This document shows, one piece after another, positions 39,501 through 56,000 of a stretch of 64,000 nt of DNA. How positions within the stretch are numbered: position 1 is the first letter of the stretch; each line of letters opens with the position of its first letter. The translations under genes and the position numbers were made by a program. The notes under the pieces were generated by a model. It saw only the letters and a program-made list of their open reading frames with translations. It did no database searches and had not been told where the DNA came from. The DNA comes from Colius striatus (taxonomy: Eukaryota; Chordata; Aves; Coliiformes; Coliidae). Location: positions 57,747,367 through 57,811,366 of the forward strand of contig NC_084760.1 in assembly GCF_028858725.1 (NCBI RefSeq). Direction: 5' to 3'.

Positions 39501-41618
39501 CTGAATAGCCATCTGCCTGCTCCTTCGCAGTGCACAAGGCCATCACAACAGGTTTTGGAAGGATGGTGAAACAGAATAACAACATGAAGAACATATGTCC
39601 ATCTCATGGGTAGTGCTGTGTATTAGAAATAACATGTTCAGAGACTTGACACATTTTCTCATCCCGGGCTTTTGGATTTCATTCTCAAATCCCAGTTGCT
39701 CAAGGAACCTGCAGGCTGAACTTTGTCATTTCCAAGAAATAAGGGCCTCTGTATATACAGACTCAGCATAGTAGTAAGAAGAAAGGATACCACCTGCCTG
39801 TTAAAGCAGCCTGTAGCATACATAAAAATTATGTAGCGTAATTCAACAATAAAATCTCTAAACCACTTAAGTTTTCCTGGAAGGACCTAGGAATTAAATT
39901 AGGTTTTGATGGGCTGGAGAAAACTACCAAATATAAATACACGTTGAAAAGGTAGCACAAGTTTTATTGAGGAAAGCCCTCTACAGATGTTGGCATTTAA
40001 AAGTGATCTCCTCTTTTGTCCAGCTGTGGCTTTTGGCAAAGAACTGTCAGGCAACTGAAATCGAGGGCAGCTATAGACATAGATGGAGAGGATATTAACA
40101 ACCTCTGGCTATCATCTGCAGTTTTGTCTGGTCCTGCAGTAGTCAGTGATTTGCTTAAACTGATATTTGCTTAATTTGGTTGATCTGCTTCCACTCAAAC
40201 CCATTCCACTCTAACTCATTTTCTGTCTCTTCAAGCTTTCCTAATCTAGGGAAAAAATATGGCCTTCGCTGCCACTGTCAAGACTACCAATAGTCAGAAT
40301 ACCTTTTCCCAGCACATTACTGCCATTCTAAAACAGCTCATATACCTAAGAAACTGAAATTCAACTACAGACACAGATCATATTACTAACTTTTGAGGCA
40401 CTCACACTTTGGTAGTGACATTAGGTAAGACTGTAGAGAAATGTTCTATCACAAAAACTGAAATGTGGCAAAGACCATCATTTCAAACCCTGCAAGAACT
40501 GCAGGTAAAATATGAGAGCTGACATTATGGAGGTATGCTGCAGGCTGCTTTAACAGGCAGCGTATGGCTGCAATTCATTTGGATCTGATAATTTTCCTTC
40601 TCATACTTTCATGTGAGCAATCTCCGCCATACATTCCTGTGTTGCTCAGCCACAGGGCGATGTTGGCAGAACACAAGCAAAACTACTCCATGTGTACATT
40701 AGAATGAAAAATGTGGAATGCCTAGTGGTGAAATAACTTGCTCCTGTATGTTGCCAAGGCAGATTCAATTTATGCATTCAGAGTGCCAGAGGGTTCTACT
40801 GCAGGGACAATTTGGGGATAAAAGAATAATAAATAATTACTGTAACTATTTCTGGAAGAAGATCCATTAGACATGGAAGGGAGTGAGTGTTTCTTAGTAT
40901 GTATAAACACAAGTGGTGTCAAGACGTTCATGTTATTTACTGTAGCTGTTTTCCCTACTAAAAGCCATCCATAAATGGAGGAGGTTCTAGTCAGAATGAT
41001 TGTGCATCTTGCAGCATTTAATGTATGATGTTCTTTTTAATATTACCCTTTACCCCAGCAGACTTGTGTCATCTAATTCCTTTTTGCCAGAGAGTTATTA
41101 TACCTAGATTCTTTGCTATTAAATATGCCTTTTCTTTCATAAAGCCCATATATGCAGTTGTTCAGTATGTACTCGGAAAAAAGCATGTCTGTCATGAGCA
41201 ATGGGGCCCATGGCCAGCAGACCAGGAGCAGCATACATAGCCAACGATGTCATAGAAAGCGTCACACAAAGTGACATTTAACACCCTGCTTCATATTCAT
41301 GACTATTAAATAAGCAATTGCTAAAACTACCTGAACTCAGGCTTTGCATCCTAACATCAGCTATTAGAAACTTCAGTGACAGATAAGAAAAAGGATATAA
41401 TTCAGAAAAAAAAAATAGGAGTGATCTCTAGTTGCTTCATCTTATGTGAAAATGTTAGTGTTGAGAGTTTTGTTTAAAAATACCTCTTCTATTTTCTTCT
41501 GCATGACCTTCCATTGACATTCCCATTCCTTCCTTTCGTTGTCAAATCTCTCCAACAATTCCATCTTCTCTTTATTCCAGTTCCTCTCAGTGTTCTCCAA
41601 TTGTTTATGCAGGTCCAT
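33338..41618 (-). CDS. KIAA0408: KIAA0408 orthologue, complete coding sequence in five exons
   Basis: Coding exons in transcript order are 41618-41484, 38766-38425, 38086-38007, 36822-35439 and 33511-33338, all bounded by GT-AG. They join to 2115 nt, or 704 residues plus TGA, close to the human protein (about 694). The start ATG at 41616-41618 sits in a strong Kozak context (GTAACCATGG). Residues 1-45 form a charged coiled coil, 160-186 a second short helix ([17 protein letters not shown]), and 265-270 a PPVPPR proline motif that could bind SH3 or similar domains. A block at about 541-577 ([20 protein letters not shown] onward) is almost unchanged from human as I recall it, and the C-terminus is basic (residues ~658-690). 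No signal peptide or membrane span is seen. Biochemical function is unknown. It lies directly downstream of MTCL3 on the same strand. Confidence 0.95.
33512..35438 (-). other. KIAA0408 last intron (1927 bp)
   Basis: The donor is GTAAGG and the acceptor ends TTCTAG. It is AT-rich and I recognise no further feature. Confidence 0.8.
35439..36822 (-). CDS. KIAA0408: KIAA0408 large coding exon 4 (461 codons)
   Basis: The acceptor is TTTTTTTTCCAG. The exon opens with one base that completes the split Arg codon, then ATG AAG TCA ([12 protein letters not shown]). The donor is GTAAGG after KLPE. It holds the [10 protein letters not shown] motif, a conserved [16 protein letters not shown] block, and the near-invariant [16 protein letters not shown] segment followed by [16 protein letters not shown]. 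Residues upstream in the same open frame (to 36887, starting MLRPPRGI) are intron, and the last 11 codons of the open frame to 35406 are past the donor. Confidence 0.95.
36823..38006 (-). other. KIAA0408 intron (1184 bp)
   Basis: The donor is GTAAAA and the acceptor is TTTTTTTTCCAG. The short minus-strand open frames inside are not supported as exons. Nothing else is seen. Confidence 0.8.
38007..38086 (-). CDS. KIAA0408: KIAA0408 coding exon 3 (80 nt)
   Basis: A small exon encoding [20 protein letters not shown] and then KKSNHR, ending with AG of a split Arg codon. The acceptor is TTTACAAAG and the donor is GTAAAA. The encoded helix is strongly conserved with human KIAA0408. The exon is too short to appear as an open frame of its own. 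Confidence 0.92.
38425..38766 (-). CDS. KIAA0408: KIAA0408 coding exon 2 (114 codons)
   Basis: The acceptor is TTTTTTCAG before [15 protein letters not shown] and the donor is GTAAGT after GDLNV. It is 342 nt, phase 0 at both ends. The first residues finish the N-terminal coiled coil. The rest is polar, poorly ordered sequence with little conservation against human as I remember it. Open frame to 38778 and to 38398 is intronic. Confidence 0.92.
38767..41483 (-). other. KIAA0408 first coding-region intron (2717 bp)
   Basis: The donor is GTATTT after KKIEE and the acceptor is TTTTTTCAG. It is AT-rich with no recognised repeat or exon. Confidence 0.8.
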
Positions 41619-53059: not shown

Positions 53060-56000
53060 CTGGGAAAGTAAATACAGAGACAAAGAGAACAGTCCATTAA
53101 TGGAATAGCAAGTCCAAAGTTTCCACAAAATAAATAGTGAATCGGACTATGCTTGTAGAGGGACCAAGTGCCCATCTCCCATTGGCTTCAGTAAGAGTTC
53201 TGCATGGTCAAGCTCATAAATGCTCAATTTATCTATTTCCACTATTTGTTTAGAGAAAATACTAATTAGTTTGCTTCAAATTTGTGTAAGCCCATGCAGT
53301 GGTCTGCCTTTAAGCTAATGGGAGCTCTGCAAGATCAGAACTATTGCTAGATCAGAAAGTGAGCATGCTAAATGCCGTTTCTGTTTGATTTCATGCAATA
53401 CATGTATAGTAATTGATTAGCTTTAAACTCACTGCGTCTGTGACTTTCTGATACAAGGAAACAAAAGACTAATTAGTCAGCATAGGAATAAGAAATAATA
53501 GCTTTCAGCTTCACCTAGCAATTATTTGACTGTAAACTAGCAGGACATCACAAAATAAATTAGCACAGCAAGAGGCTTACTAAAACATTGAATAATACCA
53601 TTATCAATAACAAGATTTGCCAACTATAGAATTGTGTGATAAAATAAAGGTAGGTAATTTTCATTTTTCATGGCAAAAGACCTTGAGTCAGCAAGGAATT
53701 TGCTCCCTAAAACTGCTCTGGAACAATTTCTGCATAGAAGTGAACTACAGAAAAGATGCCAGTTGCTGCTGCATGTAAGCAGTGACCCATGGGCCTTCAA
53801 TGAGATACAGTTACAGCAATTCCAATATCCCTAGTACCCTCTGGCTCTGTGATTGTGTAAAGTAGATTTGCATGGTTTATTTTTCTCTGTGGTCTGCCAT
53901 ATTATCTATAATTTTTGAAATTTAATGTTTCCTCCTGTTTAAAATTAATAAGATTTTCTTTTTGTCCATTTAACAGGAACCCAACCACTAAGAAAACAAT
54001 CATGTTCATTTATGTGTCAAAAATGCTGTCTGCACTGCCTTTACCAGCGATGACGGCACAACTCTGAAAAATGTAACTGCAAAGCAAGAAAGGACTAAAA
54101 CTTTTCAACTCCCAGAGCATACTTCTTTTAATTTCCTAACCAGACTTATTCACCGTTCCCAGACAGTGTCACTGGTAGAATAAGGTTTTATATGGCCAAA
54201 TAAGGATTTAATATAATTTAAGAAACCACAATTTTTGTCCACTGTCTAGATTAAAGAATTTTCATGTGCACTACATGGAATTTGAGGCTTAATTCTCTCA
54301 GCAGAGCCTTTTTACCTGTAGGCCGTAATAAGTAAAAGTCTACCTGACTCACTGACAAAGGTTCATCTGCGCTTCGATCATCCGATGACTTTGGGACTTC
54401 GAGTCTGTCAATGAAAGCCTGGAGCTCTTTCCTGAAGGCCTTCATCTGTGCGTTGATCCGGTAAAGAAGCTCATGCTCACGTATTCTGCTGCCGTCATCT
54501 TCCTCATCCATCAGTCCAAAGAGGTCTCCGTTAGCTACGTAAATTCTCGCCTCTGTTATGATGGTGCTCGTGTCAGAAATTAAGCGATCTATTGTCTTGC
54601 CCAGCCGCTCAGCTTCAGAGCGAATGTCCTTCATCTGCTGCCTGTCAGTGAAGTTTTTCTGCCACCCAGATGGCGTCGGATAAAAAGACCTCGTCGGTGT
54701 CAGGCATCGAATGTTGCGCACCTCTTCGGAGTCACTTTCCCCACCGATGGGGCCTTCCCTTTTGCGGTGAGGGGGCCGAGAATCATCGTCGCTCTCTTTC
54801 TTTCCTGCGTCACTTTCCGCATCGCTGTCTCTGGGACTACCACGAATCCCAAGATGAGAGGCCAAGTCGTAGCGTTGCATGTTGGACATTAAGACTCTGT
54901 TCTCATACTGGAGCTGCATGACTTTGCCACTCAGCTCGTTGATCTGCATTCGTGCAGCTTTTAGCTCCTCCTGTAATGCTTCTGTCTTGGCATTATCGTG
55001 ATGCCTAGAGCTCTCGTGGGCCCCAGACTTGTACTTGTATTTATTCAGCTCAGCTGTTACGCGCTTGTTCTGTTCTTCCAAATCAGCTAAATTTCTCCTC
55101 AGTAATTCTGTTTCATCTTCTACTAGCTGCAAATGCTGCCGTAATTCTGACAGGGATTCACTCTGCTCTCCCAGTAGAGGGTTAGCGGTCCCGGAGAAAT
55201 CGTCTCCTCTTAAATCATCAAGCTCTGCTTTCAGTCCTCTATTTTCTACTTCTAATTCCACTATTTTCCTCCCAAGAATATTAGCTTCCTCCTCCACAAG
55301 TCTCAATCGAAGCTTGAGTTCAGCCTCTCTTGTGGTAGGTGGCCCACCTGCTTCACCTTTTGGCAAGGGACTGTCCAAATCCCCATAAAACGACCTATAT
55401 TTTTGCAGCTCATGCTCAAATCGGTCCTTCTCTTTATCAATCTTAGCCATCTTCTTCCTCATCAAGGCTGCTTCTTCTTTGACAAACTGTAGCTGGCATT
55501 TCAGGTCTTCATTGTCCTCCTTCAAAAAAAGAGAAAAAGTAGCATTTGAAGAAACGTGATGTAAAACAGAAGACCTCCAGGGCACAGTCTTAAATTACAA
55601 GATTAGCAATCATAGCTACGTAGCTTTAAATAGTAAGAGATTTTCTTGCAATCCTTTTTTCACTGATCAATAAATTTGAGAGAAACAAACACTTAAATTT
55701 TAAAAAGAGGGAGAGACTAAAGCTTGCACAGTCACCAGAAAGGTGAAAGGGGCAGGGGACTTCTAAAGAATCCTTGTATTTTCTAGGCTTGGAACACTGT
55801 AATAGACTTTACAGCGCTGAAAAATCCTGAAGTCAGCACACAAAGAGCATATTAATCTTGTTTCACTGGTGCTTCCATTTACTTATTTTGCATTAAATAT
55901 AGGGTACATGAAAGCTGGTGGGTTCTGTTGCAGCACCAGTGATTTGGTTAGGCAGTACTTGACATAGTGTTGTCTGAATGGAGACCTAGGGTAAGAACTC

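Follow-up and report, generated by a model that had tools for sequence, protein, structure and literature searches.

In a 64,000-nucleotide stretch of the genome of the bird Colius striatus (NCBI RefSeq assembly GCF_028858725.1, contig NC_084760.1, positions 57,747,367 to 57,811,366; hereafter, the window), the genes MTCL3 (SOGA3) and KIAA0408 adjoin on the same strand, and their exon phases allow the first to be spliced to the second without a change of frame. We propose that the two genes descend from one ancestral gene resembling MTCL1/MTCL2 (SOGA2/SOGA1), MTCL3 from its N-terminal and KIAA0408 from its C-terminal part, a reading to which we assign a probability of about 0.6. As judged from the sequence, inheritance from such a split gene, rather than selection for a fusion, is most likely the best explanation of the shared phase. 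What we observe is how the two genes lie (adjacent, on one strand, at a given spacing), which domains they encode, the phases of their exons and the open frame; that a gene was split, that this happened here rather than a fusion in MTCL1/2, and that a fused protein is ever made are what we infer beyond that. The genes are named after the human proteins, and the Pfam matches agree. SOGA1 and SOGA2 are taken to be MTCL2 and MTCL1, respectively.

The last-but-one coding exon of MTCL3 (55519-54344, minus strand, 392 codons), recognized by its open frame, splice sites and Pfam match, aligns with family PF11365 (SOGA) in two stretches (E = 1.8e-66). The family PF14818, described as "SOGA 1/2-like, coiled-coil," is not among the 25 best of the 34 families for this exon (25th family, E = 3.1). 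It matches KIAA0408, in which residues 1 to 54 of the spliced protein align with profile positions 1 to 54, the full length of the profile (E = 1.6e-24; 86 bits, where the cut-off is 26.6). Positions 41627-41487 alone, which add three codons before the KIAA0408 start, give E = 1.7e-22, with residues 4 to 47 aligned to positions 1 to 44 of the 54 in the profile. The domain order in the window is therefore the SOGA part first, in MTCL3, and the PF14818 part second, in KIAA0408. In MTCL1 and MTCL2, the SOGA repeats presumably also lie upstream of PF14818. The two genes thus resemble MTCL1/MTCL2 in that a family named after SOGA 1/2 matches KIAA0408 and the SOGA family matches the MTCL3 exon. They differ in that the domains lie in two neighboring genes, each of which has its own stop, and that an exon encoding a hydrophobic tail lies between. 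As adjacent putative halves with a compatible phase, they are also similar to split (fission) genes that retain an in-frame junction.

We modeled KIAA0408 with five coding exons, all on the minus strand, encoding 704 residues in total. Exon 1 (41618-41484, 45 codons) holds the PF14818 coiled coil and ends in phase 0 before a GT, exon 2 (38766-38425) runs from phase 0 to phase 0, exon 3 (38086-38007) ends in phase 2, exon 4 (36822-35439) is large, and exon 5 (33511-33338) encodes the C-terminal tail and the stop. Likeness to the human proteins also helped to place exons 3 and 5. The tail is basic, with 11 K/R and one D/E among the 57 residues of the last exon. We set it, as a candidate counterpart, beside the basic C-terminus of MTCL1 and the microtubule-binding C-terminus of MTCL2. 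MTCL1 is reported to bind microtubules at both ends, and its basic C-terminal domain, which follows the central coiled coils, to stabilize them (PMC5546597); MTCL2 is said to bind microtubules via a conserved C-terminal domain without stabilizing them (PMC9782006). If our proposal is true, KIAA0408, so far named by its cDNA number alone, would gain a family, as a detached MTCL end, and a testable role at microtubules.

Several points weigh against a common ancestor of the two genes. PF14818 matches 54 of the 704 residues of KIAA0408, and at E values up to 10 the remainder of the protein matches nothing else in Pfam, so the coiled-coil stretch could have moved alone. The PF14818 profile starts exactly at the KIAA0408 methionine, so the KIAA0408 sequence itself may have defined where the profile begins. 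The first exons of MTCL3 lie beyond the window, so the absence of PF14818 from the exon examined does not exclude it from the whole MTCL3 protein. Finally, the strong start context of KIAA0408 described below fits an independent gene as well as it fits a split one.

The 55519-54344 exon of MTCL3 ends with ...DEPLSVSQ in phase 0, followed by a GT at 54343-54342 on the minus strand (CAG/GTAGAC). On the KIAA0408 side, an AG at 41629-41628 is followed by ACTGTAACC (ACT GTA ACC, encoding T-V-T) and then by the ATG at 41618. The junction is in phase 0 on both sides, and so is the start of the MTCL3 tail exon that would be skipped. A spliced model that joins 54344 to 41627 and continues through the five modeled coding exons of KIAA0408 contains no internal stop, and the distance from the MTCL3 stop to the acceptor is 11,321 bases. 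The two genes have the adjacency and common strand of a readthrough (conjoined) gene pair, and also the stop-free, phase-compatible junction, which readthrough would require only if a fused protein is to result. The original prediction, which gave the SVSQ donor at 54343, phase 0 at 41627 and three stop-free linker codons, was correct on all of these and in its claim that the phases permit an in-frame join. A fused MTCL3-KIAA0408 protein could be encoded in frame; the sequence lends support to neither its production nor its selection.

Splice sites were scored with textbook weight matrices rather than with a trained splice predictor. The acceptor with its exon start at 41627 scores 7.3 bits (top 4.3% of 4880 minus-strand AGs). 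A second acceptor 54 bases upstream (AG at 41683-41682, exon start 41681) scores 9.8 bits (top 1.0% of the same AGs) and is likewise in phase 0 and open, so that the frame is kept and stop-free with either site. The resulting 63-base leader (41681-41619, minus strand) is in frame, has no ATG and ends with the nine bases for T-V-T, giving a linker of 21 residues in place of three. We considered T-V-T as a conserved linker and dropped the idea, given the longer linker from the better-scoring acceptor and the single species at hand. The ATG at 41618 lies in a strong start context (AACCATGG) and is probably a real start and not just an internal codon.

The same phase agreement could arise by chance between neighbors, in which case any readthrough would be rare leaky termination. 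A chance expectation came from the AGs on either strand that score 7.33 bits or more as acceptors and lie outside the modeled coding exons. The modeled acceptors were left out, as were sites with no ATG in the 100 bases that follow; at each remaining site, the first ATG was checked for frame and the leader for stops. Such in-frame, open pairs make up 86 of 343 in the window (25.1%), and 19 of 77 (24.7%) among sites of at least 9.77 bits. When the modeled acceptors are kept in (six, or five at the stricter score), the counts are 90 of 349 and 22 of 82. The arithmetic chance of frame agreement is about 0.29 with three open codons and about 0.12 with 21. Because roughly one comparable site in four would permit an in-frame join, such geometry is by itself no evidence of selection, and phase agreement of neighboring genes in general should not be read as evidence of a selected fusion. 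These counts are what a coincidence would predict; we nevertheless consider it unlikely, as it leaves unexplained why two genes that are both linked to SOGA-named families lie side by side.

The original prediction had taken the geometry to suggest that the arrangement is old and selected. Selection does not follow from a geometry that one in four comparable sites has by chance, and descent of both genes from a single ancestor would make the agreement of their phases a simple inheritance from the old junction. A split origin would then explain the readthrough geometry without selection, and the geometry may be old. The series of events that we envisage begins with duplication in the MTCL family, followed by changes in the copy that became MTCL3/KIAA0408. 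A terminal exon with its own stop and 3′ end would have been gained inside a former intron, adding a hydrophobic tail that probably inserts into a membrane. Downstream, the second half, KIAA0408, would have acquired a start of its own. The old exon junction would have been retained, and skipping of the tail exon would still join the halves in frame. The ordinary state would be two separate proteins. Transcription past the MTCL3 3′ end combined with tail-exon skipping would yield an MTCL1/2-like protein, in which the hydrophobic tail is swapped for the C-terminal half provided by KIAA0408.

The putative tail exon is the last coding exon of MTCL3 (53059-52949, minus strand), which we recognized by its likeness to the tail of the human protein. 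It starts in phase 0 with ATG TTC CAG after CCCAG and encodes 36 mostly hydrophobic residues followed by TAA (19-residue windows of hydropathy average 1.48 to 2.48). With 10.3 bits, its acceptor ranks in the top 0.7% of the 4880 minus-strand AGs; the scores are approximate, but they predict that the exon is usually spliced in. The donor before it, at 54342-54343, is a weak site that scores 4.9 bits and ranks in the top 7.0% of 3517 GTs. A rival donor on the minus strand (TCA/GTGAGT, 54347-54352), which begins at 54352, nine bases upstream, scores 5.5 bits (top 5.0% of 3517 GTs) and has the same phase. Use of the upstream member of this tandem pair would remove V-S-Q and leave the frame unchanged.

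These site strengths bear on the selected fusion that the original prediction supposed, in which some tissue, probably brain, would make the readthrough protein and selection for it would keep the phase. The frame is open through both candidate acceptors, and a weak donor with a tandem rival would allow a regulated choice. In human prostate cancer data, KIAA0408 and SOGA3 both belong to a 70-gene neuroendocrine signature (PMC6249266); that paper reports that both were dropped from the analysis of one cohort because too few samples expressed them. Both are also among eight genes for which hypomethylation and overexpression are described in neuroendocrine prostate cancer (PMC10486655). The two reports are consistent with shared expression. 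However, the tail-exon acceptor (10.3 bits) is stronger than either KIAA0408 acceptor (9.8 and 7.3 bits), so skipping is not favored by site strength, and old introns keep their phase without selection. We therefore find a selected fusion very doubtful, although it would be compatible with a split origin.

The region between the two genes also speaks to how KIAA0408 is transcribed. None of the 43 500-base segments that lie wholly between the genes exceeds a CpG observed-to-expected ratio (o/e) of 0.44, and no CpG-island promoter for KIAA0408 was seen among them. This argues weakly for the split reading. It would also fit a situation, likewise compatible with a split origin, in which readthrough only lends the MTCL3 promoter to KIAA0408: the joined transcript would be translated from the KIAA0408 ATG or degraded, and a fused protein would be irrelevant. 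The strong start context at 41618 is in line with this possibility. On the other hand, KIAA0408 may have a promoter that lacks a CpG island. The gene was measured in chicken hepatocytes, where its expression is 3.38 reads per kilobase per million mapped reads (RPKM) in controls and is lowered to 0.63 RPKM by growth hormone (PMC4227886). The main text of that paper does not name MTCL3/SOGA3, so the transcripts measured there may have been separate or joined ones. On balance, we regard promoter lending as quite improbable.

A further arrangement would make the two genes one gene still, throughout jawed vertebrates. An alternative terminal exon would switch between a membrane-anchored form with the hydrophobic tail and a soluble, full-length MTCL1/2-like form whose basic C-terminus may bind microtubules. 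A third product, KIAA0408 by itself, would be made from an internal start. We consider this rather improbable, and favor the split into two genes.

In human, a SOGA3-KIAA0408 readthrough locus presumably exists. It would involve the same two genes, presumably in the same order and on one strand; the difference is that it is a readthrough locus by annotation, whereas the window is known from genomic sequence alone. The hyphenated name SOGA3-KIAA0408 was not found in the literature searched, in which the name MTCL3 occurs in one paper (PMC12880232). Among the titles and abstract openings listed, none treats the pair as one gene, either fused or split, although such work may have been published. 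The "readthrough" of PMC9975258 concerns another gene pair and was set aside. Other papers found hold lists of predicted or supposed microRNA targets (PMC4177883, PMC9576445, PMC9123672) and a rabbit gene table (PMC10839001). Synteny would place LEG1 downstream of KIAA0408 (PMC7060313). The text of that paper does not carry the name KIAA0408, and its figure does not draw every gene in the region, so it gives no age for the pair itself. Six short motif patterns for LEG1 found no LEG1-like motif in positions 1-33300, downstream of KIAA0408; LEG1 may have been missed or lie outside the window.

We also looked for relatives of the individual exons. Comparison of KIAA0408 exon 1 with solved structures, with E = 10 as the limit, gave 14 matches, which we rejected as relatives. 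Six of them have E values under 0.001 (the best being 1.6e-06); all six are SAKe proteins, whose scores add up recurring hits of some 15 residues that do not pass individually. The remaining matches have E = 0.18 or worse. The MTCL3 exon has no match among solved structures up to E = 0.01. Patterns for its relatives matched 29 times in viral contigs and 107 times in genome contigs, and none of these matches was confirmed. The window has no Rfam match at the gathering score and no tRNA, and none of eight other open frames in it matched Pfam at E = 0.01.

Base composition sets the MTCL3 exon apart. The region 54251-55250 is the most CpG-rich of the window (o/e of 0.70 to 0.85, the latter being the highest value, versus a median of 0.16), and the exon is nonetheless an internal coding exon. 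Outside its neighborhood, the next-best o/e is 0.55, near 33 kb. Between the two genes, an open frame on the plus strand (48078-48296), which lacks a Pfam match at E = 0.01, looks like part of a CR1 element from birds or reptiles. Also between the genes, a purine-rich unit of 21 bases forms a short tandem run of 2.7 copies at positions 45284-45340.

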